Assembly: GCA_900317925.1 (NCBI GenBank)
Contig: ONIQ01000015.1
Location: 10,211-55,359, forward strand
Source: an uncultured Bacteroidales bacterium
Lineage (GTDB): Bacteria > Bacteroidota > Bacteroidia > Bacteroidales > UBA932
Reading direction: 5' to 3'
DNA: 45,149 bases
Position 1 is the first letter of the stretch, and each line of letters begins with the position of its first letter. The notes under the pieces are model-generated. The model had not been told where the DNA came from, did not search any database, and worked only from the letters and a program-made list of their open reading frames with translations. Positions 2,699 through 18,817 of the stretch are shown here, piece by piece. Made by a program: the position numbers and the translations under genes.

Positions 2699-2705
2699 AG
2701 CCAGC

Positions 2706-3242: not shown

Positions 3243-3257
3243 AAGGCAGATTCGGTT

Positions 3258-4739
3258 TTATTCGGCATAAGAAGACTTGTACATAACCACCTGCTCCTTC
3301 GTGGCAGGGGCGGCCGCCTCATCATAGACAACCTCTTCCAATTTCAGGCCCTGGACATCGTCGCACACGATGGCGGGACGATAGTCGGCCTTCTGCGCCC
3401 GGAAAACGACGTTGCGCAAGGTGATGCCGGTGGCGTGACGCATGTAGAAGCCCCAGGCGGGCAGTTCTTTCCACTGCGAGAATTCGGGATAATAGGAAAT
3501 CATTTCATCGATGCCGTCCAGGTCTTCCGGGGTGGTGCCGCGGTAGGCATAACGCGGGTTGCCGCCGCCGGGGAAGACGATCTCGATGTTCTCCATGAGC
3601 ACATTCTCGATCTTATGGTTCGGGATACCGGCGATGATACACGGGGAAATGTTGCGGGGCAGATCCTCGATGGGACCCTCGTAGTTGTATCCGGCGTCCG
3701 GCTTGTCCAGCGGGACCTCGGCATAGACATTCCGGATGACGATGTTGCGCATATACGGGGGTTTGGGCCTGTTCCACCGCTCACCGGTCCGCAGGAAGAT
3801 GACGTTGCCGGTATGGAGGCTGCGGATGCCGTCCACGGTGATGTTCTCGATCTCGGCACCGTCCACGGCCGCAAACGTAATGGCCGAGCGGTAGGTATCG
3901 AAAATGGTCATGTTGCGGATGGTGAAATTCTTGAAACCACCCTTCGAGACCGTTCCGAACTTGATGCCGTTCGCGCTGGATCGACCCACGCAGTTCTCCA
4001 GGAGGACGTTCTTGCACATGTGGTTGGCGGAATGGGACTTGAAGCAGAAGATATCGTCGGCCGCATCGATGTAGCAGTTCCGGATGATCACGTCCTCGCA
4101 GTCCACGATGTCGATGCCGTCGTTGTTCCAGTACGATTTGCTATCGACCCTAATCCCCTCTACATAAACGTTGTGGCACTGGTCATAGGTCTGGTTCCAG
4201 CTGCCCGGATCCTTCAGGAAGACATCCTTGATGGTCACGCCGTCGCACTCCCGGAAGTAGATGTTCTGGGGACGGTTCACCTCGTTGGGACGGTCCAGTT
4301 TGAGGGGATCCTCAAAGAGGCCGCGGTGGATGTATTCCACCATATGGTTGGCCACGGTGAAGCCCCGTCCGTCGATGGTGCCGCCGCCCGTGATGCCGAT
4401 ATTTTTCTGCTTGAGGGCGAAGATCATGCTGGTCCAACCCACGTACGGGTCCTTGACATAGTCCCAGGGATTGAGCGAACCCAGCAAAGTGGCGCCCGAT
4501 TCGAGGTGCAGCGTAACATTGTCTTTGACATAGACGGTGCCCGTCACCCAATTGCCAGGGGTGAATACGACCCGGCCGCCACCGTTTGCGCTCGCAAAAT
4601 CAATGGCTGCCTGAATGCTCTTGGAATTGAGTGTAACCCCGTCCGCCCGGGCACCGAAATCCGCCACGAAATAGTCTTTCGCAGCCAGTCCGTATGCCGA
4701 CACGGATAGCGTCATCAGGAAAAAGAGGAATTTTTTCAT
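3258..4739 (-). CDS. Secreted GH28-like right-handed beta-helix protein (paralogue B)
   Basis: This 493-residue protein has a signal peptide ending near YGLAA-KDYF. The GH28-like acid clusters are NNDGID (D207, D210) and ADDI (D228, D229). As in paralogue A, the GHG motif is replaced, here by SANGIKFG. It is the first gene of the three-gene minus-strand operon. The promoter is less clear than others in the window: a weak TAAGTTTC box lies at 4781-4788. The TGTGGTG inverted repeat at 4816-4834 lies upstream but at a different distance (27 bp) from that box, so shared control is possible but not supported. The predicted role is uronate-polysaccharide cleavage, inferred from fold and motifs. Confidence 0.85.
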   Translation of the reverse strand: MKKFLFFLMTLSVSAYGLAAKDYFVADFGARADGVTLNSKSIQAAIDFASANGGGRVVFTPGNWVTGTVYVKDNVTLHLESGATLLGSLNPWDYVKDPYVGWTSMIFALKQKNIGITGGGTIDGRGFTVANHMVEYIHRGLFEDPLKLDRPNEVNRPQNIYFRECDGVTIKDVFLKDPGSWNQTYDQCHNVYVEGIRVDSKSYWNNDGIDIVDCEDVIIRNCYIDAADDIFCFKSHSANHMCKNVLLENCVGRSSANGIKFGTVSKGGFKNFTIRNMTIFDTYRSAITFAAVDGAEIENITVDGIRSLHTGNVIFLRTGERWNRPKPPYMRNIVIRNVYAEVPLDKPDAGYNYEGPIEDLPRNISPCIIAGIPNHKIENVLMENIEIVFPGGGNPRYAYRGTTPEDLDGIDEMISYYPEFSQWKELPAWGFYMRHATGITLRNVVFRAQKADYRPAIVCDDVQGLKLEEVVYDEAAAPATKEQVVMYKSSYAE

Positions 4740-4815: not shown

Positions 4816-4862
4816 TGTGGTGGATATCACCACAAGAGGATTATTTCAAAGGGTTAGCTTTG
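4816..4862 (+). promoter_or_regulatory. Operator copy 1 and -7 box of the exported-protein operon
   Basis: An inverted repeat TGTGGTG-GATAT-CACCACA occupies 4816-4834. A Bacteroidetes -7 box, TAGCTTTG, occupies 4855-4862. The gap is exactly 20 bp, as at the two other copies in this window. No TTTG -33 element is seen at the usual place, which is where the operator sits. That layout is expected of an activator-dependent promoter with the operator centred near -41. The likely binder is the LuxR-type regulator encoded at 13601-14254 (inference). Confidence 0.75.
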
Positions 4863-4888
4863 CAATAAATGAATAATGAACGTTGCTT

Positions 4889-5536
4889 ATGGACAGATTC
4901 CGAATGATGAAATTATTCGTTGTGGCAATAGCCTGTGTCCTTGCCACCAGTGCTGCGGCAAGGGGGCGGGTGGGAGCCGGCTATCTCTTAGGAGGAACCA
5001 CACGCACTGATGAGACAGGCAAACAGCGATATCTCGCGCAAGGTCCTGTCGTTTATGCCCGCTGGAGCATTGACTTTTCCTATTATCTGGACCTGGACTT
5101 CGGGGCGGAATGGCGTTATCAGTTCATGAATTTTCCCGGTGGCGGCATCCATCCGCTTTCCGGGCTTCCGACCGGGGAGCGGTTCAACGAAGAGTATATC
5201 ACCGTGCCGCTCAACCTCAACTTCATTATCTCTACAGAAGACCTGGGTGCACTTGGATTTCTGGATTATGTCGGCACATACGCCGGTCCAAGACTGGACT
5301 GGTGTATTCTTTCTTACAACGGGAGCGACCGCTCTTCTTCTTTCACAAAGCAGGAAGGCCTTGCTTACAGGCCCCTCAACGTACTCGCCGGCATCGGCTT
5401 CTATTTCATTAAAGGGAAGTGGAGTTTTACCTTTACTGCCGATCATGGCTTCCTTGACCGCTGCACAAAAGACGACGTAAAACTGACGAACGACTGGTTC
5501 GCCTCTTTCAGGATTGGATTTGAATTCGGAAAATGA
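4889..5536 (+). CDS. Small outer-membrane beta-barrel-like protein, first gene of a six-gene operon
   Basis: This protein of about 215 residues begins with a signal peptide (LFVVAIACVLATSAAA). It then alternates aromatic and polar residues in a way typical of small outer-membrane barrels, for example GYLLGG, YARWSIDFSYYLDLDFGAEWRYQF and a C-terminal strand ending FRIGFEFGK. The longest frame opens with TTG at 4883. I prefer ATG 4889; ATG 4904 or 4907 would leave an equally good signal peptide. The stop overlaps the next start in ATGA. It is the first gene under the operator and -7 box at 4816-4862. Function is unknown beyond a probable outer-membrane location. Confidence 0.7.
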   Translation: MDRFRMMKLFVVAIACVLATSAAARGRVGAGYLLGGTTRTDETGKQRYLAQGPVVYARWSIDFSYYLDLDFGAEWRYQFMNFPGGGIHPLSGLPTGERFNEEYITVPLNLNFIISTEDLGALGFLDYVGTYAGPRLDWCILSYNGSDRSSSFTKQEGLAYRPLNVLAGIGFYFIKGKWSFTFTADHGFLDRCTKDDVKLTNDWFASFRIGFEFGK

Positions 5537-6357
5537 AACGATTGACTATAATTCTTTGCCTGCTTTGGCCTTTCGCGGCAGCGGCGCAAGTGAACTTGAG
5601 CCTGTTCGATACGGGTTTTCATGCGAGTACGGCTATCGGCCAACTGGAGGAAATGAGCGGGCAGCGTGTCAGCACATCTTCCTATAACTCCTATTACAAC
5701 TCCGGCACTACCCATCACTACTCCGGCACTACCGGGGCCGATGCGATAAAGGATGCCAAGAGCAAATTCAAAAAGCCGTCGGCCCGCCCGCAGAAATATC
5801 GCCCTCCGCGTCCCTCCAAGGCCCAAAAGGAGTATGCGCGTAAATTGAAAAAGTGGAATGACCGCTCGAAGAAAAAGAGAGAGCAGGCGGTAAGCGTCCA
5901 ACGCTACGCCCGCACCAGTAATTTCAAGTTGAAAAATGTCCGGCCCCTTCCGGAGAAATCTTCAGGGACGCCGATTCCCAGAATGATTATCATCAACAAT
6001 ATCCCGAAGCATATCACGCTGGACTACCCCGTTCACAGGGACACGGTCTGGAACAAACGGTCCGACGGAACCTTGGAAGGAACGGTCTGTGAGAGCAAGT
6101 ACTTCGCCTTTGGCGCCATTCCCGGGGAAGAAGGCTGGTTCAACGAATTCCGTTTCACCAATCCTTCCGACAAGGAAATCATCGTCAAGGTGGAATATGA
6201 GTTGAAATACGGCAGGGACGGAAAAACGCTCCGCGAGCAGAAAGTTATCCATATGCCGCCCGGAAGAATCAATGAGCCAAGTATTTACAACAACAGCCTT
6301 GGCGTCTATACCCAAAATAGCTGGCGTTACCGTATCTTAAACGTTACCAGGCTATGA
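5533..6357 (+). CDS. Exported protein of unknown function with a basic low-complexity middle
   Basis: I do not recognise the family. The 274-residue product has a signal peptide (LCLLWPFAAAAQ). A Ser/Tyr/Thr-rich stretch follows near residues 45-75, with a YNSYYNSGTTHHYSGTT-like run. Then comes a strongly Lys/Arg/Pro-rich segment (about residues 75-120) rich in KKKR-like runs. The C-terminal half looks globular and beta-rich. Start and stop both overlap neighbours by ATGA, so its translation is probably coupled to the barrel gene before it and the gene after it. The basic segment could bind an acidic polymer or partner, but that is a guess. Confidence 0.75.
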   Translation: MKRLTIILCLLWPFAAAAQVNLSLFDTGFHASTAIGQLEEMSGQRVSTSSYNSYYNSGTTHHYSGTTGADAIKDAKSKFKKPSARPQKYRPPRPSKAQKEYARKLKKWNDRSKKKREQAVSVQRYARTSNFKLKNVRPLPEKSSGTPIPRMIIINNIPKHITLDYPVHRDTVWNKRSDGTLEGTVCESKYFAFGAIPGEEGWFNEFRFTNPSDKEIIVKVEYELKYGRDGKTLREQKVIHMPPGRINEPSIYNNSLGVYTQNSWRYRILNVTRL

Positions 6358-7379
6358 AAAAGGTCTTGTTTATCATCCTGGTAGCGCTTTGCGCCCGGTT
6401 TGCCTGCCGGGCAGACACGTGGTCCGATATGCTCCGGGCCTATAAACTGGACCTGAGCACGCTGGTACGCGGAAACGGATACCAGTTCTTCCGCTCGGAA
6501 GCCGGAGGAATCGGGATTGCATACTCCGAAATTGACAGCTCCGGCGTGTGCCATTTCTCCCTTGCCATGGTCCCCGTGGAGACCCGTCTGATGCGCTGGC
6601 TGCCCCAAGCAGGAGCAAATTTCGTAGAAGTACAGGAGAATGGCTATACTTCCGGCGTCCTGGCCCTCCAGGAGGTGAAGGGTCCCGATACGGACCCCAG
6701 ACTGGGTAGCTTCAGTTATGTCATCGAGCCTAAAATATTGGTGGGTCCGGACGGCAGAATCCTGAACCTGGGGTACTGGGACGACAAACTCGTCTTCCTG
6801 GTGGAAAGGGACTCCGGGGTTTTCTGGGTAGGGGAGGACGGACAGAAAACAGAGGTTCCGGTCGCCAATCCTCCGGAGAACGTTTCCGCACCAACCCTTC
6901 GCATCGAGGATACGCGCGCCGTTGATATCGGCCTTAGCGTGTTCTGGGCCGACCGGAATGTCGGGGCCGATGCTCCCGAGGCGTATGGTGATTACGTCTC
7001 TTATGGGACCGAGGTCCCTTGGGACGGAGCCTGGAGGACGCCGACACACAGGGAGTTGAAAGACCTGGTCGAGAAATGCTCCTGGGAACTTACCGCTTAC
7101 AACGGCGTGAATGGATACAAAGTGACAGGTCCCAACGGGAATTCCATTTTCCTCCCGCTGGGAGGTGCGCGCTGGGATGACGGAACGATCGACCGTCCGG
7201 GGACAATAGGTGCCATTTTGTCCTCGGAACGCCCGCCCGGACAATACTATATCGATGTCGGGGACTTTTTTCACCTCCAGATGACTTGTAGTACTTCTCA
7301 GGAGTATCGTCATTATATCAGATATGTGGTGATTGCCGACGAAAAAATGAATCTCCGGCCCGTTTTACCAAAACCATAA
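6354..7379 (+). CDS. Exported protein with a C-terminal FISUMP-like (VDIGLSVFWADRNVG) domain
   Basis: The 341-residue product has a signal peptide (VLFIILVALCARFACRA). An N-terminal beta-rich region of about 180 residues follows. The C-terminal half carries the phrase order AVDIGLSVFWADRNVGA, YGDYVSYG, WRTPTHRELKDLVEKC and VTGPNGNSIFLPLGG. This is the pattern of the Fibrobacter succinogenes major paralogous domain, which is common in exported Bacteroidales proteins and has no assigned activity. It overlaps the upstream gene by 4 bp and lies 7 bp before the next, which carries a shorter version of the same domain. Confidence 0.75.
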   Translation: MKKVLFIILVALCARFACRADTWSDMLRAYKLDLSTLVRGNGYQFFRSEAGGIGIAYSEIDSSGVCHFSLAMVPVETRLMRWLPQAGANFVEVQENGYTSGVLALQEVKGPDTDPRLGSFSYVIEPKILVGPDGRILNLGYWDDKLVFLVERDSGVFWVGEDGQKTEVPVANPPENVSAPTLRIEDTRAVDIGLSVFWADRNVGADAPEAYGDYVSYGTEVPWDGAWRTPTHRELKDLVEKCSWELTAYNGVNGYKVTGPNGNSIFLPLGGARWDDGTIDRPGTIGAILSSERPPGQYYIDVGDFFHLQMTCSTSQEYRHYIRYVVIADEKMNLRPVLPKP

Positions 7380-7386
7380 AACTATC

Positions 7387-7845
7387 ATGAAAAAGTTGTC
7401 TATAATTCTATCAATGCTGCTTCTGGGCACTGTCTCCGCTTGCGCCCAGGAGGTACCCAAGGCAGTGGACCTGGGACTCAGCGTACAGTGGGCCGATAAA
7501 GACATCGCGCCCGAAACCGACATTCCTCAGGGCTGGAGAATGCCTACCCTTGCCGAAATCAAAGAGCTCCGCGAAGGCTGTACGCAGTCTTTCACGGAAA
7601 AAGACGGGGAGGAGTGGATTGTGTTCACCGCGAAAAACGGCAACAACGTATCCTTCCTCTATCCTATTGGCAGCCGGTCGGCCCGGGCGTTCGGCATTGC
7701 GGGCTCTGACGGATGCTACCTAAATGAAATCATATTGAATCCGCTCCTGAAAGATCCGGGACGGAATGGGTATTACACTTGGGAGGAACTGGGCGAGAGC
7801 CATTCAGGACAAAGAAAATATCCCGTTCGTTTAGTAAAAGAATAA
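7387..7845 (+). CDS. Short exported FISUMP-like domain protein
   Basis: The 152-residue product has a signal peptide ending near VSACAQ. It then goes directly into KAVDLGLSVQWADKDIA and GWRMPTLAEIKEL, the hallmark phrases of the domain in the previous gene, but the domain is reduced and lacks the GDY segment. The Cys in the signal region (VSACAQ) could be a lipobox, though the following residues fit signal peptidase I as well. Probably a duplicate of the domain in the upstream gene. Function unknown. Confidence 0.7.
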   Translation: MKKLSIILSMLLLGTVSACAQEVPKAVDLGLSVQWADKDIAPETDIPQGWRMPTLAEIKELREGCTQSFTEKDGEEWIVFTAKNGNNVSFLYPIGSRSARAFGIAGSDGCYLNEIILNPLLKDPGRNGYYTWEELGESHSGQRKYPVRLVKE

Positions 7846-7849
7846 AACC

Positions 7850-8317
7850 ATGAAACGACTTTTGTTTATTTGTATCGCCATCGTGCTTCTTGCCGCTTGC
7901 AAGGAGAAACGCTGTTTTACAGATGTAACGGGCGAAATCCATCTTGTCCGGATTGGCTTTGAGGATAAGAGTTTCAGGGATTTTACGGTAGTGTCGGATG
8001 TCCTGTATGCGGGAAGTGACACATCGTCCCGATATAAGATGATCTTCTACCTGCCGGACGGCTGGGACAACAGCTATCCCATTTTCCTGGACCGCTATGT
8101 CCCTACAGACGGGCCGGCATGGACGGCCTATCAGGGCATGCCGGTTGCCGAGGCGGCGCTGAACCAAGGTGATATGATTGTGGTGCTGCTTGCCTACAAT
8201 GAAGGGACCGCCATTCCGGACATCCTTCTGGCCGAGCATTTCCTCAAGCTGCACGATGACGACCTTCCCGGAGACAGCAAAAACATCCTCACGGCAGCCT
8301 ATTTCGATTTTGAATGA
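7850..8317 (+). CDS. Small lipoprotein of unknown function
   Basis: The 155-residue product has a clear lipoprotein signal, with the lipobox LLAAC at residues 16-20 followed by KEKRC. The mature part is predicted soluble, with no motif I recognise. The start lies 4 bp after the previous stop and the end overlaps the next start in ATGA, so it belongs to the same transcript. Confidence 0.7.
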   Translation: MKRLLFICIAIVLLAACKEKRCFTDVTGEIHLVRIGFEDKSFRDFTVVSDVLYAGSDTSSRYKMIFYLPDGWDNSYPIFLDRYVPTDGPAWTAYQGMPVAEAALNQGDMIVVLLAYNEGTAIPDILLAEHFLKLHDDDLPGDSKNILTAAYFDFE

Positions 8318-8763
8318 TGAAACCGCATTTACTCATCCTGCTGCTCCTTGCCTGTGCCGCCCGGGCCCAGACTCCCGAGGAGTTGTACGAAGCGTACAGT
8401 ACTCCTGAGACTCGCGCTGTCCTGGAACGTTTTGAGGAGGCCGAACGCCGGTCACAAGAGGCCGAGGCTGCGGCGAAGGCCCGGCGGACGCTGGCTCTGG
8501 GCGGAGCGATTCTCATCGGTCTTATTCCGCTTGGCTATATCGGCCGGGAGATTATCCGCAAGAAGAGCTGGAGGGACAATCCCGGCGGCACCGTCCGCGC
8601 ACTGGGTGTCGGCCTGGCCGGGGGCGCAGTCCTATTCGGCCTCAATTATGGCATCTTCTTGCTCAAAATGAGAATGGGCGATGCGTTTAACACGTCGCTT
8701 GCTTTTCTGTTAGTCGGTATCCTGATAGCAGGCAGCCTTTACCTGTTGAATCATCACGTATAA
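8314..8763 (+). CDS. Small membrane protein with coiled-coil-like segment, last gene of the operon
   Basis: The 149-residue product starts with a signal peptide (LLILLLLACAARAQ). A charged helical stretch rich in Glu, Ala and Arg (about residues 20-60) follows. Three hydrophobic segments come next: near LALGGAILIGLIPLGYI, ALGVGLAGGAVLFGLNYGIFLL and LAFLLVGILIAGSLYLL. The charged segment would face the periplasm if the first hydrophobic segment is cleaved. It ends 40 bp before the convergent WG-repeat gene. Function unknown. Confidence 0.65.
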   Translation: MMKPHLLILLLLACAARAQTPEELYEAYSTPETRAVLERFEEAERRSQEAEAAAKARRTLALGGAILIGLIPLGYIGREIIRKKSWRDNPGGTVRALGVGLAGGAVLFGLNYGIFLLKMRMGDAFNTSLAFLLVGILIAGSLYLLNHHV

Positions 8764-8782
8764 CTCCTGCTTCTGAAAGTAT

Positions 8783-8797
8783 AGGACGGGTCGTCCT
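8783..8797. terminator. Possible bidirectional terminator hairpin between convergent genes
   Basis: A 6-bp stem AGGACG/CGTCCT with a 3-nt loop lies in the 40-bp gap between two convergent genes, followed by TATTAATC on the plus strand. The stem is short and the T tract is weak, so this is only a candidate. Confidence 0.35.
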
Positions 8798-8803
8798 TAT
8801 TAA

Positions 8804-10615
8804 TCAAAAAATCACTCTTACCGTGTAATACACATCCTTGTCCCTCCAGGTCTCTCCCCCCACCGCTATCGTCATGGACTTGATGGCTGGATAGTCATCC
8901 AGAAGTACCAATTCAGAGGGAGTGATGTTTGCCCTTCTCTTTTCTTTGAAATACGGGGCCACATCAATGGGTACCGGGATTCTGATGATGTCCCAGGGAG
9001 ATTCTTCCAGGTAGGATTGGAAGCACTCGTTTTCCGTATCATATGTGCCAAATACAATACGATGCTTAGACTGTTTCATGTACTCGTCCACGGGCGCCGG
9101 AATGCGAGAGGACAGGAAGTTCCCCAGATTGGCCGGATCGGCAATCCTGGCCTGATAGTCGGCTTCCTTTTCAAACTCTCCCTTCTTCATGAATTCCTCT
9201 TTCAGTTTGGCGGTCTTTTCATTGTACCAGGAAGAGAAAGAAATCCCCTCTTTCGCCTCAACGTCAAGCGTGGTCCGGACTGGAATCAACCTGCCGTTGG
9301 AGCGGTAGTAACTTATACCGTCCTTTTCCACATATATGGTAATAACCTTTTCTCCGCCTTTCTTTATCCAGAAGGATTCCCGAATGTTCGTGTATTCGAT
9401 GGGAATGCTTTCCCCGCTGGGAAGCAAGGCTCCATAAAGACCGCCATTGCCGTAAATCGCGGTCCCGCCATTGCATAGGATGACGTTCTCGTAATCGAAA
9501 GGAACCAGGGTTTTCCCCTGCAGGTCCAGCACCCCGAACTTGCCGCCTTCCTCTTTTTGCGCCCGGACAATGCCGGTGGGAGAAACCGAGAGGCTGGCGT
9601 ATTCGTGAGGAAGAAGGTTATGGCCTTCCTTGTCATACAAGCCGAATTTTCCATATTTGCTGGCAGCGATATAGCCGGGTTGATAAATGGTGACCGCCTC
9701 GAACTGCTCGGGAAGCACGCTGAAGGCTTCCATCTTGTCAAACTGGTTCGGTTTTCTCTTTTTGCCCACTCTCCAGACGCCCCATATCATCTTGCCGTCT
9801 TTTCCGGGATTGCCCATAATCACAAGCAGAGTCCATCCTAAGTTTTCAGGGTTGGCGGCAACGCAACCCGCATATTTCACAGGAATGAGTTCGTGGCCAT
9901 AGCCCCAGCTGATGTTTGCTTCCACAAGGCCGTACTTCATGGGCGCATTATCTCCTTTCCCGGATTTCAGGCCCACGATGGCGACACAACCGCCGATCGC
10001 ATAGCCTTCCGAGTCCACGCCGGGAGAGCGTAAGTTGATAAAGTCATACTTGGGCTTGATCATCCACTGTCCGGGATAGTCTGTCATCTTCCCGTAGTTC
10101 TTGTCGGATTTCATCGTTTCCGTATACGTCCACGCATTTTTCCAAACGCCCAGTTTGTCTTTCCCGGAATCACGCAACACTACATAATCGGGGACCTTCT
10201 CTCCTCCGGACCGTTCATCATATTTATAACCAAGCGTGTGCCCCGGAACATTGGTGGTATAGCGCTTGTAGTCTCCTTTAGGTTCGGAATTCAGCCAGTT
10301 GGAAAGGGCATTTCCCAGGGCCGAGCCCACGGCCACAGCCGCCACACCGGCAGCGGCCTGGCTGGCAACTGACGAGGACGACGAGGATGACGAACTTCCT
10401 GCGGCACTACGGCTCTTGTAGTAAGGGCACCAGGTTTCGTGTTGCCAGGGATAGGTGATATTTCCCATCTCGATTCCGCAATAGGAACAGGTCTTCTTGG
10501 CGGATGTGGGGTTGGCGGTTGTTTGCTTTAGCGCTTGTCCCTGGCTCAGGCCAGCCTGGGCAAACAGGCTTACGGAAACCGTGAGGCAAAAAAGGAACGT
10601 AAGGATTCTTTTCAT
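8804..10615 (-). CDS. Secreted WG-repeat protein with N-terminal zinc-ribbon-like motif (paralogue A)
   Basis: This 603-residue protein has a signal peptide ending LFAQ-AGLSQ. Residues 43-63 hold C-x2-C-x12-H-x3-C (C43, C46, H59, C63), which looks like a metal-binding ribbon. A run of serines, then an Ala/Gly/Val-rich segment (AAAGVAAVAVGSALGNAL), follows. The rest consists of repeated beta units with phrases such as KYGLVE, KFGLYDKEG and KFGVLDLQGK, which fit WG repeats. The C-terminal region may be a separate domain. The promoter at 10637-10683 carries the shared operator. The whole N-terminal module is shared with the protein at 14938-16935. Location is periplasmic or surface; the partner is unknown. 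Confidence 0.8.
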   Translation of the reverse strand: MKRILTFLFCLTVSVSLFAQAGLSQGQALKQTTANPTSAKKTCSYCGIEMGNITYPWQHETWCPYYKSRSAAGSSSSSSSSSVASQAAAGVAAVAVGSALGNALSNWLNSEPKGDYKRYTTNVPGHTLGYKYDERSGGEKVPDYVVLRDSGKDKLGVWKNAWTYTETMKSDKNYGKMTDYPGQWMIKPKYDFINLRSPGVDSEGYAIGGCVAIVGLKSGKGDNAPMKYGLVEANISWGYGHELIPVKYAGCVAANPENLGWTLLVIMGNPGKDGKMIWGVWRVGKKRKPNQFDKMEAFSVLPEQFEAVTIYQPGYIAASKYGKFGLYDKEGHNLLPHEYASLSVSPTGIVRAQKEEGGKFGVLDLQGKTLVPFDYENVILCNGGTAIYGNGGLYGALLPSGESIPIEYTNIRESFWIKKGGEKVITIYVEKDGISYYRSNGRLIPVRTTLDVEAKEGISFSSWYNEKTAKLKEEFMKKGEFEKEADYQARIADPANLGNFLSSRIPAPVDEYMKQSKHRIVFGTYDTENECFQSYLEESPWDIIRIPVPIDVAPYFKEKRRANITPSELVLLDDYPAIKSMTIAVGGETWRDKDVYYTVRVIF

Positions 10616-10636
10616 GATACGTGGTCGTTAATACTA

Positions 10637-10683
10637 CAAAAATAAATAAATAATCGTTAGGTTTTGTGGTGAATGACACCACA
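10637..10683 (-). promoter_or_regulatory. Operator copy 2 and -7 box of WG-repeat gene A
   Basis: The inverted repeat TGTGGTG-AATGA-CACCACA lies at 10665-10683. Reading leftwards, a perfect TATTTTTG -7 box lies at 10644-10637, separated by exactly 20 bp. The spacer base composition differs from the other copies while both arms are identical, as expected for a conserved protein-binding site. The operator also sits 12 bp from the -33 element of the divergent kinase gene, so it could affect that promoter too. Confidence 0.75.
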
Positions 10684-10695
10684 TACGACACCTGA

Positions 10696-10727
10696 TTTGA
10701 TTATGTGACAAATAATGAGTATGTTTG
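10696..10727 (+). promoter_or_regulatory. Promoter of the histidine kinase/response regulator operon
   Basis: TTTG at 10696-10699 and TATGTTTG at 10720-10727 are separated by 20 bp, a full Bacteroidetes consensus promoter. It gives a leader of about 60 nt to the preferred start at 10795. A second TATCTTTG at 10781-10788 has no matching -33 element and would leave almost no leader. Confidence 0.65.
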
Positions 10728-10794
10728 TCTATAATGAAGAAAAAACAATCATGAGGCATAAAGATGCCATAGAAAAGTCTTATCTTTGCTATTG

Positions 10795-13608
10795 GTGAGA
10801 CGCTTTGCCATTATACTAAGTCTTTTGCTTTCATGGCAGATGAGTGCTGTGGAAAGGCGCTTTGTGAACTATGGCAGCGCCGACGGGCTTTCTTCCAATA
10901 CGGTCTATGCCATCGTCCAGGATAAAGACAACTTCCTCTGGGTGGGTACCCGCGGCGGGCTGAACCGGTTCGACGGGGCCCGTTTCCGGTCTTGGAAGGA
11001 ATTCGGACGCGTGAACGCCCTCACCGTGGACCGGCAGAACCGCCTGTGGATAGGCACCGTGGAGGGGCTGTATGTAAGGGACCCGGTCCGGGACGTGTTC
11101 AGCGAAGGGCCCAGAGGTCTTGTCCGGGCCCTGGCCACGGATTCCGACGGCCAGGTCTGGGCCACCGTAGGGGACACCCTCCTGCTCAGGCTTTCCTATG
11201 CCGACGGCATCCGGACCGAGGTCCGTACCCGGTATCAGAAAAGGGACCACGAAGGGGATTATCCCTATTTCCAGATCTTCGAAGCACCCGACGGCAAGCT
11301 ATGGCTGGGCGGACGGCTGACCTCCTGCCAATATATAGAAGACCGGAAGCATCCCCGGATTTGTCTTCCCCTCGGTTCCGGCCCTTGTCTGACCTCTTAT
11401 GCCTGGGACGGGAACCGGCTGCTGGCCATCTACGACCATTATAATACCCTTTGCACCCTGGAAGACGGCAAGTTGGTCACGCTGGGGAAGATGCCCGTCG
11501 CCCATGCCCGCCTGCTGACGGACAGCCGGGGGCGCCTTTGGGCCGCCGGTTCCTACGGCGTGGCCCTGATAAACCCGGACAAACCGGAAGACTCGCCCGT
11601 ATTCCGCCGCAGCCAGAAAGACCCTTACAGCCTGATATCCAACGAGTTATACTGCATATTCGAAGACCGGCAGGGCAACCTCTGGGTGGGTGGCGACAAC
11701 GGGCTGTCCGTCCTCTGCCCCACCCTGCAGCAGGTCCGCCGCGTTTCCGACGGGCAGGTTACCGCCCTGATGGAAGACCGGGACGGGAAACTCTGGATCG
11801 GCCTGGCCGAGGATCGCGTATCGCGCTTCTATCAGGACCGCGGCGGAACGGTCTATGTGGGCCTGTGGAACAACACGGGGTGGGAAGTATGGAAGGACGG
11901 CAGGATGCATAAGGAGCGCCTGAGCGGCCCTACCCCCCGGGAGCAGTGGCCATCGGCGGCCGAAAGCTTTGACGGCGCCAACTGGATTGCCGATTTTCTG
12001 GAAGACAGTGAGGGCCGCTTTTGGGTTGTCACATGGGAAGGCGTGGGACTCAATGAATGGGATCGCAAGGCCGGAAAGATGTTGCCACCCCACTGGCTCA
12101 GCCCCTTCCGCTACCCCACCCCGCAGGTAGATTCCAACATTTACGTGAGTTCCCGCCTGGGCAGCCGGGTAATCGAGGATGCCGGAGGGAATCTGGTTTA
12201 TGCCACCACCCAGGCGGGGGTCAATATAATTGACAAAAACACCGGCCTTGTAACCAAGTATCACAAAGGTAATTCCGATATACCGGACAACTACGTGACC
12301 GACCTCTGCCTGACCCCTTCCGGCACCCTGTGGGCCGCCACGCAAAGCGGCCTCTGGAGCCCTTCCGGCGCGCATTTTCTGGACGGGAAGCTGGTACAGT
12401 CGGTGCAGGCCGATGCAGCCGGCCGCCTGTGGGCCGGCACGGAGGAAGGGCTCTATTTCATCGACACGGACGGAAGCACCGGCGTGGCCCGCAAAGAATT
12501 GGGATTCCCCTCCGACATTTACGGAGAAAAGGTTTCCTGCACCCTCTCCGACGGTTCCCTGGCGTTTGGCGGCAGCGACGGCGCGGCGGTTTTCCACCCC
12601 GACAGCCTGCTGCGTGCAGGAAACGGCCGGTGGCAGCCGGCCCTGACCGAATGGGTCACGGAGGGCGCCTCCCTGCAGTTCGCCTTTTCCGCGGAGAACC
12701 TCGCCCTTGCCCCGCTCATCCGCTACCGCTACCGCCTGGACGGGGTGGACGAAAACTGGATTCCGGCAGATTATCCGCAGTTGGGCGGCCGGTACAACGG
12801 CCTCTTCCCCGGACGCTATACGCTTGAAATCCAATGCACCGACCTGTTCGGACGGTGGCAGGACGGCGCGTTGCGCCAATCGGTCCGGATCCGGCCTCCG
12901 GTGTGGCTGCGCTGGCCCTTCCTCCTGGGCTACCTCCTCCTGCTCGCGGGAGCTTTCCGACTCTTCGTGCGGTATCGTGAGAACCGCCAGCGGACGCTGG
13001 TCCTACAGGCGGAATTGGAGACGCGCAACCGCTTTTTCGGCATCATTTCCCACGACCTGCGGAACCCCGTTTCCGGGATGAAAACCCTCGCGCACGCTTT
13101 GGAGGAGGCCCCCGACGACCGCCTCCGGGAGGGTGTGCGCGCCATCGAAAAGGCGGCCGATCACACATCGGACCTGTTGGAAAACCTGCTGATGTGGTCA
13201 CTCGGCCGGCAAGGCGTGCTGCAGGCGGTTCCCCGGACGGTCCGGCTGGCCGATATCGTCTCGGATGCCGCCGCCGGCAAACCCATCCGCACGGAAATCC
13301 CGGAAGGATTCACCGTCACGACCGACCCCGACATGCTCACCACCTGCCTGCGCAACCTGCTGGACAATGCGGTCCGATACTCGCCGGAGGCCGGCTCGGT
13401 GCTGCTGTCGGCCGATGCGGAAAAGATTGTCATCCGCGACCACGGTCCCGGCATGGACGAAGAGACCCTCCGCCGTCTGTCCCGCCCCGGTCACCTCGGG
13501 CTTGCGATTACCCGCGAGCTGGTGGACAAGATGGGCTGGCGACTCATCGCCCGGAACCACCCCGACGGCGGCTGTATCATAACCCTCCTATTCCCCCATC
13601 ATGATTAA
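10795..13608 (+). CDS. Two-component sensor histidine kinase with periplasmic propeller and Y_Y_Y domain
   Basis: From GTG 10795 the product is 937 residues with a signal peptide (RRFAIILSLLLSWQMSA). The longest frame starts with TTG at 10786. The periplasmic part is a series of two-component-regulator propeller repeats (NFLWVGTRGGLNRFD, NRLWIGTVEGLY, NLWVGGDNGLSVL, GRLWAGTEEGLYFID). A Y_Y_Y domain follows, with YRYRLDGVDENW and LFPGRYTLEIQ. A single transmembrane helix lies near residues 704-727. The cytoplasmic part has the phospho-acceptor His at about 753 (ISHDLRNP), an N box NLLDNAVRYSPE and a G box DHGPGMD. No receiver or AraC domain is fused, unlike hybrid HTCS proteins. Its stop overlaps the regulator gene by 8 bp, so the two are a cognate pair. 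Confidence 0.9.
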   Translation: MRRFAIILSLLLSWQMSAVERRFVNYGSADGLSSNTVYAIVQDKDNFLWVGTRGGLNRFDGARFRSWKEFGRVNALTVDRQNRLWIGTVEGLYVRDPVRDVFSEGPRGLVRALATDSDGQVWATVGDTLLLRLSYADGIRTEVRTRYQKRDHEGDYPYFQIFEAPDGKLWLGGRLTSCQYIEDRKHPRICLPLGSGPCLTSYAWDGNRLLAIYDHYNTLCTLEDGKLVTLGKMPVAHARLLTDSRGRLWAAGSYGVALINPDKPEDSPVFRRSQKDPYSLISNELYCIFEDRQGNLWVGGDNGLSVLCPTLQQVRRVSDGQVTALMEDRDGKLWIGLAEDRVSRFYQDRGGTVYVGLWNNTGWEVWKDGRMHKERLSGPTPREQWPSAAESFDGANWIADFLEDSEGRFWVVTWEGVGLNEWDRKAGKMLPPHWLSPFRYPTPQVDSNIYVSSRLGSRVIEDAGGNLVYATTQAGVNIIDKNTGLVTKYHKGNSDIPDNYVTDLCLTPSGTLWAATQSGLWSPSGAHFLDGKLVQSVQADAAGRLWAGTEEGLYFIDTDGSTGVARKELGFPSDIYGEKVSCTLSDGSLAFGGSDGAAVFHPDSLLRAGNGRWQPALTEWVTEGASLQFAFSAENLALAPLIRYRYRLDGVDENWIPADYPQLGGRYNGLFPGRYTLEIQCTDLFGRWQDGALRQSVRIRPPVWLRWPFLLGYLLLLAGAFRLFVRYRENRQRTLVLQAELETRNRFFGIISHDLRNPVSGMKTLAHALEEAPDDRLREGVRAIEKAADHTSDLLENLLMWSLGRQGVLQAVPRTVRLADIVSDAAAGKPIRTEIPEGFTVTTDPDMLTTCLRNLLDNAVRYSPEAGSVLLSADAEKIVIRDHGPGMDEETLRRLSRPGHLGLAITRELVDKMGWRLIARNHPDGGCIITLLFPHHD

Positions 13609-14254
13609 AGTATTGCTGATAGACGATTCTTCCGTCTTTGCCCTGGGCCTCCGGATGGCCCTGGAGCGGAACAGCGACCTCCACCTGGCCGGCCATGTGA
13701 CCACGTCCGGCGAAGCCGTGGCCTGGCTGAACGCCCACCCGGAAGTGGATGTGGCCATCGTGGACATCACCCTGGAACAGCAGACCGACGGCCTGACCCT
13801 CCTGGGCATCCTCCGGGAAGCCTTCCCGCACGTGGCCGCCCTGGTGCTGTCGCACTATAAGATTCCGGCCTATATCATCCAGTCCATTACCTATGGTGCA
13901 CGGGGTTACCTGGCCAAGGATTCCGCCCCGGCCGAAATTGCCGCTGCCATCCGGAGCATCGCCAACGGGAACGGCGTCTTTTTCGGCACCACCCTCCCGA
14001 ACAAGGAGATTATCCGCCTGTTCGGCGGAGAAGAAAACCTGAACGCCCGGCGTCCGCAGGACCTTTCTCCCAAGGAACTGCAAGTGCTTCAATTGGTTAC
14101 GAGCGGATACAGCAACGCACAGATAGCCACGGCCCTGGGCGTTGCCACCACTACGGTGGATAGTTATAAGGAACGGATCAAAACCAAATTCGGCCTGGAC
14201 ACCCTGGTGGAATGCGTGGCCCATGCCGTCGCCTCCCATCTGGTGGAGGTGTAA
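13601..14254 (+). CDS. LuxR/NarL-type response regulator, cognate of the upstream kinase
   Basis: The 217-residue protein has a receiver domain with acidic pocket D8/D9, phospho-acceptor D55 (AIVDITL) and conserved K106 (GYLAKD). It also has a C-terminal LuxR-type helix-turn-helix (LSPKELQVLQLVTSGYSNAQIA, then TTTVDSYKERI). It overlaps the kinase gene by 8 bp. It ends 4 bp before the convergent gene at 14259. NarL-type dimers bind short inverted repeats, and the 7-5-7 repeat found at three promoters around this gene is a suitable candidate site. That link is inferred from location and spacing. Confidence 0.9.
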   Translation: MIKVLLIDDSSVFALGLRMALERNSDLHLAGHVTTSGEAVAWLNAHPEVDVAIVDITLEQQTDGLTLLGILREAFPHVAALVLSHYKIPAYIIQSITYGARGYLAKDSAPAEIAAAIRSIANGNGVFFGTTLPNKEIIRLFGGEENLNARRPQDLSPKELQVLQLVTSGYSNAQIATALGVATTTVDSYKERIKTKFGLDTLVECVAHAVASHLVEV

Positions 14255-14258
14255 AGGT

Positions 14259-14930
14259 TTAGTCCAGCATCCTGCCGTCGGAAGGGTCCAGGTGGTGCCA
14301 GGAACCGTCTTCCAGTTGGATGTACAGGCTGGGCTCGTCCTTGTACTTGAAATCCTTTAAATTGTTGTACAGACGCTCTCCCTCCAGGTTGAAGATGGAG
14401 TATCCTTCCTTGTCTTTTTTCAGGAAGGAGCCGATGATAAGGGCGTGCTTCGGAACAACCCGGATGTAGGCATACCGGGCCTCAAAGGCATAGGCCCTGT
14501 CCAGCGAATTCCCGGACTCCACAATCGGGACCAGTTTGTCATCCTCTATTTTGTACACGCCGCACTCACCGTTGCAGGACCACTTCCGGGTGGGATAATC
14601 GATCTGCTTGTCCCATCGGAAGCCCCAGTAAACGACTACCAGGCCCTGGGCCTCGGGAACATAGTCGTCTCCTTCCAGAAAATCCACTTCTGTCGGAGGC
14701 AGGAAGTATAGCGAACTTCCCTTTTTGTCAATGACCGGAGACGTGACCCAGGTTTTGGTCTCGTTATTCCAAATGGCCGTAACGGGAGCATCCTTGGTCC
14801 ATTTGTCTTTCCCGATTTTGATCTCATAAGGACCCATCTTCTTTCCCAGGTTCTTATTCTGCATCTGGGCATTCATGGCCGCGGGGACAAACAGGAGCGA
14901 AGCCAGCGCAAATAATGCTAATCGTTTCAT
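14259..14930 (-). CDS. Exported protein of unknown function downstream of WG-repeat gene B
   Basis: The 223-residue product begins at ATG 14930; an in-frame TTG lies just upstream. It has a signal peptide (LALFALASLLFVPAAMNAQ). The rest is beta-rich with phrases such as YSIFNLEGERLYNNLKDF and WGFRWDKQIDYPT, which recall WG-type repeats, but I cannot assign a family with confidence. It follows the WG-repeat gene after 7 bp and so falls under operator copy 3. Confidence 0.7.
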   Translation of the reverse strand: MKRLALFALASLLFVPAAMNAQMQNKNLGKKMGPYEIKIGKDKWTKDAPVTAIWNNETKTWVTSPVIDKKGSSLYFLPPTEVDFLEGDDYVPEAQGLVVVYWGFRWDKQIDYPTRKWSCNGECGVYKIEDDKLVPIVESGNSLDRAYAFEARYAYIRVVPKHALIIGSFLKKDKEGYSIFNLEGERLYNNLKDFKYKDEPSLYIQLEDGSWHHLDPSDGRMLD

Positions 14931-14937
14931 AATCAAA

Positions 14938-16935
14938 TCAATATAAATCTGAATAGTTCATGATGGGGCCCGTATAGCCTTTCAGGCCCGGATTTACATA
15001 ATGATAAGTTTTGCCGGAAGGCAGTTTCACATCCATCTCGGCAATTTGGGCAAAGTGCTGATAGATGAAGATTTTTGCAGTCTGTAGCAGGTCCTTGGTC
15101 CGGACCGATGCAAGCGCCTGGCGGAAGGCCGGGCCGTCCTCAATGGGCACAGTCAGGTAATAGATAGGGATGGCCGACAGGTTGCTGGTAAACGGGAAGG
15201 CACCCTTTTCGGCATCGTAGTCGTGCCAGTTGATGGTCATGCCGGTATTCGTCCCCACGGCCTTGTCCAACATGGACCGCAGGAACAACAGCGGAAATCC
15301 TTCCATTTTCTTATCGATATATGCCTCGTTGGCGGCGGGATCGGCCAGGCGGGCCTCGAACTGGGCCTGCGTTTCAAACTCGTCCTTCTTCTCGCCGTAC
15401 CCCTTGCGCTGCCCCCGGGCAATCATGAAATAATCCGTGGTCTTGAGGGAATTCAGGTAAAGGTAGAGGTCCTTCCGGTCCAGGATCAGGGGCTCCAGGA
15501 TGTATGTGCCGTCCGTCCAATGCTTTACGCCCCACTTCCCGTCTTTCTTCACAAAGAACATCTTCTTTCCCACGTATTCGTTGTTGAGCGGAGAGAAATT
15601 AACCAGTTCCGTGTCGTGGTCCACGATCTGGATGCCCTCGAACTCGGGCTCCAGCACGGTTTCTCCCTTGGCGTTGGCAAAGCCGTACAGGCCGTCCTGG
15701 CAGAATACGAAACCGTCCGGGGTAAAGGTCACTTCGTCATAAACGGCATCGGTCCGGACCCCGTCGTTGGTCAGGACAAAATACTTGTCCTCTCCATCCC
15801 GGCGGGCAGAAACGCCGTATTCGTCCACGTGCATACTGGCATGGACAAAAGGCAGGATCACCTCGCCTTTGGTGTTGACAAGGCCGCAATTGCCGTCGTC
15901 GGCCGCCGCCCAGGTCCACTTGGTTTTGGCGGTGATGGTTCCCACATCTTTGTATTTTACGGGAACCAGTTCCTTTCCGTCATCGTCGATGATGCCGGCG
16001 TGGCCGCCTTTCCAGACAATGGACTGCTTGTTGTAGAACTGGATGCTGTCGAACTGAGGCGCAGCCAATTCTTTCAGGGTGATGGGGTGTTTCTTGATTT
16101 CCGAAGGACCGGAACGGGCCACCTTGTACAGACCCCAGACAGGCTGGCCGGCCGGGCTGTTCTTCTGCAGCATCACCTTGTCCGATTTCAGGCTGAACTC
16201 CACATCCGTGGCCGGGAAGGGGGCGATGACCGAGGAATGCCCTTTGTAGCACATCGTACCCAATCCGAACTCATAGACATTCCATTCCGTCGAGGTGTTC
16301 CCTTTCTTGGTAACTTTCTGACAGGTAATGGCATACGGGTTGTTCATAAACTCGCCCATATAGATTTGCTCAAACTGCGGTTCCAACACCCAGAAGCCCG
16401 AAGTGGGCTGGGGGTCGCGGCCCGATTTGTTGAAGACATAGGCATTGTGCCAGATTCCCTTCTTGCCTGTCTTGGGGTCCCGCAGCACCACGCAGGTGTG
16501 GTCGTCGTCTCTTTGGTACTGGGTCGTGAACGAAACTTGTCCGCCGAAATTGTCGTTCCGGTAGTAATTGTTGTCTCCGCTGCTATGATCCATCGCGTTG
16601 GTGAGCAGGCTCGACAGGGCGCTTCCCAGCGCCATCGAGCCGGCGCTCAGGGCCGTGGCGGTCAAAGCCGAGGAAACCGAAGCGGAAGAAGAGGAACTGC
16701 CGCCGCCCGAGCCCTGGCTCCTATAGTAGGGGCACCAGGTTTCATGCTGCCAGGGGTAGGTAATGTTACCCATGGTGATGCCGCAGTGAGGGCAATGTTT
16801 CTTTCCGGCGGTAGGATTGGTTGTGGGATTCACAACAGCCTGGCCCTGACTTAGGCCAGCCTGCGCATGAGCAGAGACACCCGCCACCAGCATGAGCCCG
16901 CCCAGCAGGATTCGCAAAAAAAAGCCGTGATTCAT
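14938..16935 (-). CDS. Secreted WG-repeat protein with N-terminal zinc-ribbon-like motif (paralogue B)
   Basis: From ATG 16935 the product is 665 residues. The longest frame opens at 16965, but that start is upstream of or inside the -7 box at 16953-16960, so it is unlikely. The start at 16935 also gives a clean signal peptide ending SAHAQ-AGLSQ. The motif C48, C51, H64, C68 has the same spacing as in paralogue A, within a shared block including GNITYPWQHETWCPYY. A Ser/Gly linker and an Ala/Leu/Ser-rich hydrophobic stretch follow. After these come WG-type repeats (KKGIWHNAYVF, VWGLYKV, NCGLVNTKGE, LYGFANAKGE, KWGVKHW). Its promoter carries operator copy 3. Confidence 0.8.
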   Translation of the reverse strand: MNHGFFLRILLGGLMLVAGVSAHAQAGLSQGQAVVNPTTNPTAGKKHCPHCGITMGNITYPWQHETWCPYYRSQGSGGGSSSSSASVSSALTATALSAGSMALGSALSSLLTNAMDHSSGDNNYYRNDNFGGQVSFTTQYQRDDDHTCVVLRDPKTGKKGIWHNAYVFNKSGRDPQPTSGFWVLEPQFEQIYMGEFMNNPYAITCQKVTKKGNTSTEWNVYEFGLGTMCYKGHSSVIAPFPATDVEFSLKSDKVMLQKNSPAGQPVWGLYKVARSGPSEIKKHPITLKELAAPQFDSIQFYNKQSIVWKGGHAGIIDDDGKELVPVKYKDVGTITAKTKWTWAAADDGNCGLVNTKGEVILPFVHASMHVDEYGVSARRDGEDKYFVLTNDGVRTDAVYDEVTFTPDGFVFCQDGLYGFANAKGETVLEPEFEGIQIVDHDTELVNFSPLNNEYVGKKMFFVKKDGKWGVKHWTDGTYILEPLILDRKDLYLYLNSLKTTDYFMIARGQRKGYGEKKDEFETQAQFEARLADPAANEAYIDKKMEGFPLLFLRSMLDKAVGTNTGMTINWHDYDAEKGAFPFTSNLSAIPIYYLTVPIEDGPAFRQALASVRTKDLLQTAKIFIYQHFAQIAEMDVKLPSGKTYHYVNPGLKGYTGPIMNYSDLY

Positions 16936-16952
16936 ACTGCACCTGTTTTTTG

Positions 16953-16999
16953 CAAATGTAGCCATTCAGATGGAGCGTCTTGTGGTGCCGTTCACCACA
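16953..16999 (-). promoter_or_regulatory. Operator copy 3 and -7 box of WG-repeat gene B
   Basis: The inverted repeat TGTGGTG-CCGTT-CACCACA lies at 16981-16999. Reading leftwards, TACATTTG at 16960-16953 is a perfect TAnnTTTG box, separated by exactly 20 bp. The predicted leader to ATG 16935 is very short, about a dozen nucleotides. Confidence 0.75.
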
Positions 17000-17013: not shown

Positions 17014-17045
17014 TTTGCTTTTCTTCCAGACTTATGATACCTTTG
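17014..17045 (+). promoter_or_regulatory. Promoter of the kinase-phosphatase gene pair
   Basis: TTTG at 17014-17017 and TACCTTTG at 17038-17045 are separated by 20 bp, a full consensus promoter about 30 bp upstream of ATG 17077. Operator copy 3 lies 14 bp upstream of its -33 element, so this divergent promoter could also respond to the regulator. Confidence 0.65.
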
Positions 17046-17076: not shown

Positions 17077-17952
17077 ATGGAACAAACGAACTACCCGCAC
17101 ATAGACCTTTCGGCCTGGACACAGGTGGGCGAAGGCGGCAATGGCAAGACGTATGAGAATCCGTCTCGTCCGGGTGTTATCTTGAAAGTCAACAACGCCC
17201 GGTTAAGCACATTGGAGGCCGTAAAGCACGAGTACGACGTATCCAAGGCAGTGGAAAGCCTGGGACTGCCCGTTCCGGCCATGCATGAGATGGTCCGCGT
17301 AGGTGACGTCTATGCCTCCATCTCCGAGCTCGTCCCAAACAAGAAATCCTTATCCCGCATCTGCCACGACGAGCCGGAACGGATTGAAGAAATGGCCCGC
17401 CTCTTATGCCAGAAAGGGAAGGAACTTTTTGCGACGCCGTGCCATACGGATTTCTTCCCCAGCCGGAAGGAGCAGGTCCTCAGCGCCATCGACCGGGCTG
17501 GATTCGTAAGCAAGAAAAACCGCCGGATGATTCGTGCATTTGCCGAATCCGTTCCGGAAAATAGCCACTGCGTCCACGGGGATTTCCAGCCCGGCAACAT
17601 CCTACTGTCCGGAGAGCAGACCTACTGGATAGACCTGGACCGCTTCGCTCATGGCGATCCCCTGTTCGATATCGGCCACCTGTTCCAGATTTGCCAGGTA
17701 TATTCCTCCATGAAACAGGTCCAGGGGATCTTCCACATGACGCAAGCACAACTCCATCGCTTCTGGGATGCCTTTGCCCGGGAATACACCGGACAGGAGG
17801 ACCATGCGGCATTCGACCATCTCTGCGGCAAATTCGCCTGCATGGATATCATCTTGCGCACCCACTTCGTCAAACCGACCTTCGCGGAAAAGATCTTCTT
17901 TGGAATCTTTGTCCGGAAACTGGTAAAAACATACTTCTCCGATGAATCGTAA
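17077..17952 (+). CDS. APH-fold small-molecule phosphotransferase
   Basis: The 291-residue cytoplasmic protein has the aminoglycoside-phosphotransferase fold signature. A Gly-rich loop (GEGGNGKTYEN) leads into a Lys-containing strand (GVILKVN). The catalytic loop is VHGDFQPGNIL (HGDxxxxN) and the metal-binding segment is WIDLDRFAHGDPLFDIG. It most resembles the phosphotransferase family first named as a Fibrobacter succinogenes paralogous family. The substrate is unknown and there is no reason to call it a resistance gene. Its last 11 bp overlap the start of the phosphatase gene, so the two are co-translated. Confidence 0.8.
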   Translation: MEQTNYPHIDLSAWTQVGEGGNGKTYENPSRPGVILKVNNARLSTLEAVKHEYDVSKAVESLGLPVPAMHEMVRVGDVYASISELVPNKKSLSRICHDEPERIEEMARLLCQKGKELFATPCHTDFFPSRKEQVLSAIDRAGFVSKKNRRMIRAFAESVPENSHCVHGDFQPGNILLSGEQTYWIDLDRFAHGDPLFDIGHLFQICQVYSSMKQVQGIFHMTQAQLHRFWDAFAREYTGQEDHAAFDHLCGKFACMDIILRTHFVKPTFAEKIFFGIFVRKLVKTYFSDES

Positions 17953-18817
17953 ATTCCTCTTGATAATGGCCGTCCTAATTCCCACAAGCGTTTTCGCCCA
18001 GCAGTTTCTTCCGGTAAAAGGAATTGTGAACGCACGGGACCTGGGCGGTTATACGATGCTGGACGGCCGGATTGTCCAAAGCGGCAGGCTCCTTCGGGCG
18101 GCCCACCTCGCCGATGCCACGGATGAAGACATCCGCAACCTTGAGCGTCTTCCCGTTACTGCAGTCATCGATTTCCGAAAAGAACAAGAGAAAATGGGCA
18201 AAGTGGACCGGGAGGTTCCCGGCGCCCGCTATACGAGCCTTCCCGTCGATCCCAGCGGCAACGCCATGGCAACGGCCACCGAAGAGGAAAAGAAAAAGTT
18301 CTCCGGACAGAAGAAATTCGACGTCAGGAAGGTCATCGTGTTTGCCGCCTTTAACAAAAAAGCCCAGGCCGTTGCACGGGAAATGTATCCGACGCTGCTT
18401 TTCGATCCGGACTGCCAACAGCAGTTCGCCCGCTTTTTCCGGCTGGTCCTGGAAACCGATCACGGTGCCGTCCTCTTCCACTGCACCCAGGGGAAAGACC
18501 GTACCGGCATCGCATCGGCCCTGCTGCTGGCTGCATTGGGTGCCGATCGGGAAACCATCGTGGCCGATTTCGACGCGACCAACCGGGTCTATGAGAAAGA
18601 CGTGCGAAAGTACTCCCGGCGCGTGAAGTTCTGGGGCGGCAAGGAAGAAGAAGTGGGCGTCGTCAAGGCCTTCCTGGGCTGCAACACGGAGAATTTCATC
18701 AAGGCGCTGGACCGGATTGATCAGGAATTCGGCTCCCTCCAGGCCTACCTCAAAGGGCCCATCGGCCTCACCGACGCCGACATCCAAACCCTCCGCGAGC
18801 GCTATCTGGCGCGGTAA
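17942..18817 (+). CDS. Exported tyrosine-phosphatase-like protein (Y_phosphatase3 type)
   Basis: The 291-residue product has a signal peptide (LLIMAVLIPTSVFAQ). The family start motif NARDLGGY precedes LLRAAHLADAT and VIDFRKEQE. The phosphatase P-loop HCTQGKDRTG gives Cys-x5-Arg with the KDRTG version seen in phosphoinositide- and tyrosine-phosphatase relatives. The protein is predicted to be periplasmic. An exported phosphatase overlapping a cytoplasmic phosphotransferase gene suggests linked handling of one phosphorylated small molecule, but the substrate is unknown. Confidence 0.85.
   Translation: MNRKFLLIMAVLIPTSVFAQQFLPVKGIVNARDLGGYTMLDGRIVQSGRLLRAAHLADATDEDIRNLERLPVTAVIDFRKEQEKMGKVDREVPGARYTSLPVDPSGNAMATATEEEKKKFSGQKKFDVRKVIVFAAFNKKAQAVAREMYPTLLFDPDCQQQFARFFRLVLETDHGAVLFHCTQGKDRTGIASALLLAALGADRETIVADFDATNRVYEKDVRKYSRRVKFWGGKEEEVGVVKAFLGCNTENFIKALDRIDQEFGSLQAYLKGPIGLTDADIQTLRERYLAR

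Follow-up and report, generated by a model that had tools for sequence, protein, structure and literature searches.

Response regulators of the NarL/FixJ (LuxR-type) kind, such as DevR/DosR, OsdR, VraR and NarL, combine a REC and a GerE domain. The same layout is found in a regulator encoded at 13601-14254 of the DNA described here, a 45,149-nt stretch of an uncultured Bacteroidales genome (contig ONIQ01000015.1, positions 10,211 to 55,359; "the window"). The window also holds three copies of an inverted repeat, TGTGGTG-N5-CACCACA, which we call operators. OsdR binds a 16-nt palindrome (PMC5069765; papers cited by accession are represented here by excerpts). In contrast to the four regulators named above, the half-site here is TGTGGTG and the layout spans 19 bp.

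FimR is likewise LuxR-type. As the regulator of the two-component system FimS/FimR of Porphyromonas gingivalis, it switches on a surface-protein gene and binds to the promoter of mfa1; the operator sequence was not found in the excerpted source (PMC1974823). The likeness to our locus is that of a two-component activator of surface proteins, and the targets differ. The sensors of Bacteroides hybrid two-component systems (HTCS) carry Reg_prop and Y_Y_Y domains, as does the sensor of the window kinase. HTCS proteins have a fused AraC-type domain, and the sites predicted for HTCS and SusR consist of direct repeats, as given in the excerpt (PMC3878776). The window kinase instead ends in HATPase_c with no fused AraC-type domain, its regulator is a separate GerE protein, and the operator is an inverted repeat.

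Among the open-licence literature matches listed (titles and abstract openings; PMC8757827), we found no description of the operator or its consensus notation. An earlier reading of the window, made from its letters only (the sequence-only reading), knew of no named regulon with this site. The operator marks a real regulon, new but of a familiar type, whose two fixed geometries are unusual as a pair. The primary sigma factor of Bacteroidota is unusual, and to our knowledge its activated promoters are poorly mapped. The site, its distance rule, the likely regulator and the targets were all read from the sequences of 29 genomes, which include many metagenome-assembled Bacteroidales of ruminants. 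They offer a directly testable model of activator action at promoters with a weak -33 element, and a starting point for work on uncharacterised proteins predicted to be exported.

Operator and -7 box

The sequence-only reading described three 19-bp inverted repeats with identical 7-bp arms, each exactly 20 nt from a TAnnTTTG box. All three repeats match exactly and all three distances are confirmed:

4816..4834, + strand: operator 1, TGTGGTG-GATAT-CACCACA, exact pattern match
10665..10683, - strand: operator 2, between the gene for the WG-repeat protein WG1 and the kinase gene, exact pattern match
16981..16999, - strand: operator 3, exact pattern match
4855..4862, + strand: -7 box TAGCTTTG, 20 nt past operator 1
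10644-10637, - strand: -7 box TATTTTTG, 20 nt past operator 2
16960-16953, - strand: -7 box TACATTTG, 20 nt past operator 3

These are the only exact copies of TGTGGTG-N5-CACCACA in the 2,177,383-base assembly (75 contigs); the reversed control pattern has no exact match in this genome. Four other places match with two mismatches (two for the reversed control), and they look like chance. The relaxed consensus given below, with a box at 20 nt and up to three mismatches, yields five matches: each of the three operators once, and operators 1 and 3 again when read in reverse; the search to three mismatches adds no further operator in this genome.

A collection of named genomes was scanned for the exact operator followed by TAnnTTTG 8-38 nt away, which returned 44 stretches. 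Counting boxes within 60 nt, 27 strand-matches fall at 20 nt, 2 at 36, 4 at 37, 5 at 38 and 3 at 48, with at most 2 at every other distance. One of the 11 matches at 36-38 nt is from Heyndrickxia (L024; G and L numbers are our labels for genomes and loci). Bacteroidales/Bacteroidia records account for 26 of the 27 matches at 20 nt; these come from 24 stretches, 13 of them titled as ruminant rumen, omasum or abomasum. The other match, in Flagellimonas (L034), lies inside a 305-codon open frame and was rejected. Some of the named-genome records are closely related to one another and were collapsed by downstream identity. Together with near-matches fetched from family loci (up to three mismatches in total), the combined set forms 31 promoter clusters, in which three operators (L046, L047 and L101) are counted twice, both strands being read.

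The relaxed operator consensus is TGTGGYG-rAwTy-CRCCACA. At 12 of the 14 arm positions the main base occurs in 29-31 of the 31 clusters. The other two are position 6, with T in 27 clusters and C in 4, and position 14, with A in 24 and G in 7. The spacers, which the sequence-only reading took to be unrelated, do differ within the window. Across genomes they are not unrelated, as A at spacer position 2 and T at position 4 are each kept in 27 of 31 clusters; the spacer is weakly constrained in these sequences. Of the 20 nt between operator and box, the first carries 1.25 bits (A in 27) and the remaining 19 carry 0.60 bits or less each. This variability, unlike the sameness of arms and box, does not follow from the way in which sites were picked. 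Among 26 operators found beside kinase genes (see below), positions 6 and 14 read T/A in 13, C/G in 6, C/A in 5 and T/G in 2, related genomes being counted separately. The operator arms tend to change together, as would be expected of a dimer site.

The regulator and the kinase promoter

Two overlapping genes near operator 2 encode the two-component pair:

10786..13608, + strand: sensor histidine kinase (Reg_prop propeller, Y_Y_Y, HisKA, HATPase_c)
13601..14254, + strand: response regulator (REC and GerE), the proposed operator-binding protein

Judging from relatives, the kinase more likely starts at the GTG at 10795. The regulator has a NarL/FixJ layout (PF00072, 1.1e-15; PF00196, 4.5e-15), and its nearest solved relatives are DevR (3c3w), to which it was aligned, and VraR. 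The acidic pair, phospho-Asp and Lys of this type of regulator are conserved: D9, D55 and K106, and S84 as well, are invariant in 29 of 29 orthologs, with E in 27 and D in 2 at position 8. The recognition helix is near-invariant, residues Y189-K-E-R-I-K194 being identical in all 29. The palindrome and the co-occurrence described next suggest sequence-specific binding of a regulator dimer to a two-fold site.

Site and regulator occur together. In a family sample of 299 genomes, 12 have matches to the regulator at 1e-25 or better. Nine of these are strong orthologs (>240 bits, 56-100% identity), and the three weaker matches (31-36%) were scored as regulator-negative. The operator with a box at 20 nt (up to two mismatches) occurs in 7 of 9 regulator-positive and in 2 of 290 regulator-negative genomes (G227 and G282; Fisher p 3e-11). 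The two strong-regulator misses, G269 and G236, have TGTGGCG/CGCCACA-type operators at 20 nt, three mismatches from the exact pattern and one from the relaxed consensus. Such variants were sought only at regulator-positive loci and in G227, so the fair figure stays 7/9 against 2/290. The G282 match lies in coding sequence (a long open frame) and was rejected as a genuine site. So was a site in G007 (L114:4283) with three mismatches; although close to a distant regulator, it sits in a 1469-codon open frame and was taken as chance. Exact operators regardless of box occur in 9 of the 299 genomes, 4 of them regulator-positive, and the reversed control in 2.

The named genomes provide a second test. 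Thirty-nine were found through the DNA pattern only (40 of the 44 loci given; tally by hand), and 23 have a regulator ortholog at 47% identity or more. An ortholog is present in 19 of 21 genomes with 20-nt spacing and in 4 of 18 without it (p 2e-5). The four are L018 and L058, with boxes at 22 and 21 nt, L032, whose box at 20 nt has one mismatch, and L026, where the sole distance is 38 nt; L034 and G305 have a 20-nt site and no ortholog. Three genomes are common to both sets (identical contig positions), leaving 29 regulator-positive genomes. In an order-level sample of 393 genomes, 19 have a match to the regulator at 1e-25, all of them at 37% identity or less except the regulator's own genome. 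Orthologs of at least 47% identity were seen in two places alone, the family sample, where they start at 56%, and the pattern-found Bacteroidales records.

We scanned the 29 regulator-positive genomes plus G227 and G305 for the relaxed pattern with a box (up to three mismatches). The pattern gave 87 matches and the reversed control 12 (hand-added), some of the 87 being reverse readings of one operator and some necessarily chance. At least one match was found in 30 of 31 genomes (range 1-7); the exception, G301, has its box at 22 nt. The single match in G309 (three mismatches) is probably chance, and that in G336 (three mismatches) reflects a box at 21 nt. The sequence-only reading had proposed looking across genomes for the site 18-22 nt from a box and for co-conservation of the regulator, and both were found. 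Its description of a local regulon holds in this genome; relatives also have sites on other contigs, away from the regulator.

An operator also adjoins the kinase gene; this holds for 27 of the 28 genomes with a readable upstream region, window included. The 29 regulator-positive genomes were covered, one upstream region (L156) being cut by a contig end. With up to three mismatches allowed in the operator, its distance from the kinase-side box in 26 relatives is 37 nt in 15, 38 in 8, 48 in 2, and 20 and 60 in one. These regions form 14 clusters by their intervening sequence, and 11 of the 14 have 37 or 38 nt. In L157 and L158 the box is 48 nt away, one helical turn past the usual 37-38. In 8 of the 26 relatives the far side of the operator lacks an exact box within 50 nt, and two of these eight, L106 and L146, have a one-mismatch box at 20 nt; in several genomes the operator seems to be kept for the kinase promoter itself. 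G309 (L145) has a 279-aa kinase that lacks the sensor propeller and matches residues 706-936 of the window kinase, with an operator at 38 nt that was hand-picked and afterwards confirmed. This second fixed distance, new here, would imply that the kinase-regulator operon is autoregulated.

Three further boxes lie beside the window operators:

10720..10727, + strand: box TATGTTTG, on the kinase side of operator 2 at a distance of 36 nt; a TTTG (10696-10699) lies 20 nt upstream
10781..10788, + strand: box TATCTTTG, adjoining the kinase start, 97 nt from operator 2
17038..17045, + strand: box TACCTTTG, far side of operator 3, 38 nt away, with TTTG 20 nt upstream

The position of TATCTTTG is the counterpart of the box found 37-38 nt from the operator in most relatives. 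The TACCTTTG promoter leads to an APH-like gene (17077-17952) and is probably operator-independent.

Activation and its alternatives

In a Flavobacterium the -7 box is placed at -12 to -5 (PMC9723704, excerpt). By that placing, target operators span -51 to -33 with a centre at about -42, close to the -41 of the sequence-only reading, and kinase operators span -68 to -50 with a centre at about -59 or -60 (about -70 in the two 48-nt genomes). The target operator ends at the -33 place, and the fixed 20-nt distance, with its 27 matches, supports the class II position that had been claimed. The sequence-only reading had also noted that no -33 TTTG is present and that the operator takes its place. 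The geometry agrees with this, and the absence says little. At other candidates (a box plus an open reading frame) in 539,718 bases of loci, TTTG stands 19-21 nt from the box in 9 of 112 and TTG in 18 of 112, a slight peak. Because TTTG is uncommon at other promoters of these loci, its lack is weak evidence for activation, and the evidence for activation rests on the fixed distances. A canonical TTTG at -33 of the kinase-side promoters was considered and rejected. Among the promoters beside operators that were listed, exact TTTG at 19-21 nt is confined to two promoters of the window and one of G306. The kinase-side boxes of the other relatives lack it, and of all those listed the window's is the sole one to have it.

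We propose that, upon a signal, the kinase phosphorylates the NarL/FixJ-type regulator, a dimer of which would bind the 19-bp palindrome. At about -51 to -33 the dimer would touch the -33 place and activate the TAnnTTTG promoter in a class II manner. The same operator at about -59 (or -70) before the kinase-regulator operon would let the system activate itself in most relatives, and the targets would be small operons of exported proteins and lipoproteins. The sequences show the site with its spacing and symmetric variation, its conservation, its co-occurrence with the regulator and their linkage; that this protein binds it, that this kinase phosphorylates the regulator, the direction of control and the signal are inferred. 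We consider it quite probable that TGTGGYG-rAwTy-CRCCACA is bound by the 13601-14254 regulator and serves both class II activation of targets and self-activation. A wider form of the model is more tentative, possible rather than probable. In it, one regulator would use two geometries in the Bacteroidales (class II at -42 for targets, class I-like at -59 or -70 for its own operon), the operator would wholly replace a weak -33 element, and cassettes would have been inserted around the pair.

Several observations weigh against regulator-driven activation. The conservation of arms and box is partly by construction, as sites were picked by match, and the genomes share ancestry, so that counts are not independent. 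The reversed control with a box (up to two mismatches) matched in 4 of 299 family genomes. Five regulator-negative family genomes (G165, G282, G051, G055 and G076) have exact operators; all of these lie within open frames of 357-895 codons with no box at 20 nt, and were rejected as coding, three of the five encoding the same GVVLITTK-type peptide. The 96%-complete G227 has a good operator-20-box promoter (L107, G227:C73) that looks real, and no regulator ortholog was found in it, nor in G305 (about 1.5 Mb), which also has a 20-nt site. G306 (L139), nearest to the window (regulator 98%), has no operator beside its kinase gene, so the fixed operator before the kinase-regulator operon is a feature of relatives other than this one. 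The window's own kinase-side geometry is atypical (36 and 97 nt from operator 2). The kinase-side 37-38 and target-side 20 nt are 17-18 bp apart, which is not a whole number of helical turns. Finally, a repressor overlapping -33 could equally sit at a fixed place.

That last point leads to the strongest alternative, in which the same regulator and site bring about repression: the dimer would cover the -33 region and block RNA polymerase until a signal releases it. The -33 place, which the operator overlaps, is also a seat of repressors. Yet the fixed 20 nt and the second fixed distance upstream of the kinase (-68 to -50) fit contact with RNA polymerase better, and the neighbouring promoter beyond operator 3, that of the APH-like gene, carries a TTTG of its own at a distance that varies, 38 nt from the operator in the window and 26 nt in G306. 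We regard repression as unlikely.

Less likely still is that the site belongs to another transcription factor travelling with the gene cluster. Linkage by itself is no proof of binding, and G227 and G305 have sites with no ortholog found. Against this stand the sites on other contigs of regulator-positive genomes, the lack of any site at two mismatches in 288 of 290 regulator-negative family genomes, the operator adjoining nearly every kinase gene, and the near-invariant recognition helix. That the repeats arose by chance, or are three copies of a mobile repeat, is refuted by the comparative result: the exact arms stand between differing spacers and flanks, and the distance peak and the cross-genome co-occurrence speak against it as well. 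In its favour, 7 of 100 window shuffles reach five matches at up to three mismatches.

Target genes and locus arrangement

The putative targets in the window are:

4889..8763, + strand: putative six-gene operon A1-A6 past operator 1, with its first ATG 26 nt beyond the box
8804..10615, - strand: WG1, WG-repeat protein with a signal-like N-terminus and a Cys/His motif
14938..16935, - strand: WG2, WG-repeat protein, first gene past operator 3
14259..14930, - strand: gene B, second gene past operator 3

A crude signal-peptide rule, applied without a control set, is passed by 31 of 31 first genes of the clusters, one of which is the kinase itself. It is also passed by 65 of 81 listed downstream genes, a list that includes doubtful reading frames, and by the six G306 (L049) counterparts of A1-A6. 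Only 3 of 19 target proteins (9 from the window, 10 from relatives) reach the Pfam cut-off, all with WG repeats; the rest fall below it or have no match. Predicted structures for two target families are of low confidence (mean pLDDT 39.2 and 54.0). In the family sample, full-length WG2 relatives occur in two genomes, its own and G269, both regulator-positive, and distant relatives (33-41%) occur in four genomes with neither regulator nor site. WG1, WG2, L030, L102 and L110 have a common N-terminal Cys/His motif, CxxCG...H...C, invariant in 7 aligned rows and suggestive of a metal or redox site.

In G306, A6 runs straight to the kinase gene, whereas in the window WG1 and operator 2 lie in between. 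Past operator 2, window positions 10683-10795 match the 3' end of the G306 A6 gene plus the kinase leader, and may be a scar of insertion of the WG1-operator 2 block, or of recombination. In G327, kinase and regulator are followed by genes resembling the APH-like (30% identity) and phosphatase genes; in the window and G306, the APH-like gene is separated from the regulator by gene B, WG2 and operator 3. These arrangements suggest that cassettes, each an operator with its targets, were inserted around the kinase-regulator pair, or lost elsewhere.

Other genes of the window were noted in passing. At 17077-18817 the APH-like kinase gene is followed by a tyrosine phosphatase gene with an 11-nt overlap. 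Three adjacent GH28 or pectate-lyase-like genes occupy 1241-4739, the middle one below the Pfam cut-off. A HipA_C-domain gene lies at 21899-22840, and 38050-40251 encodes a protein with several bacterial Ig-like (Big_2) domains.

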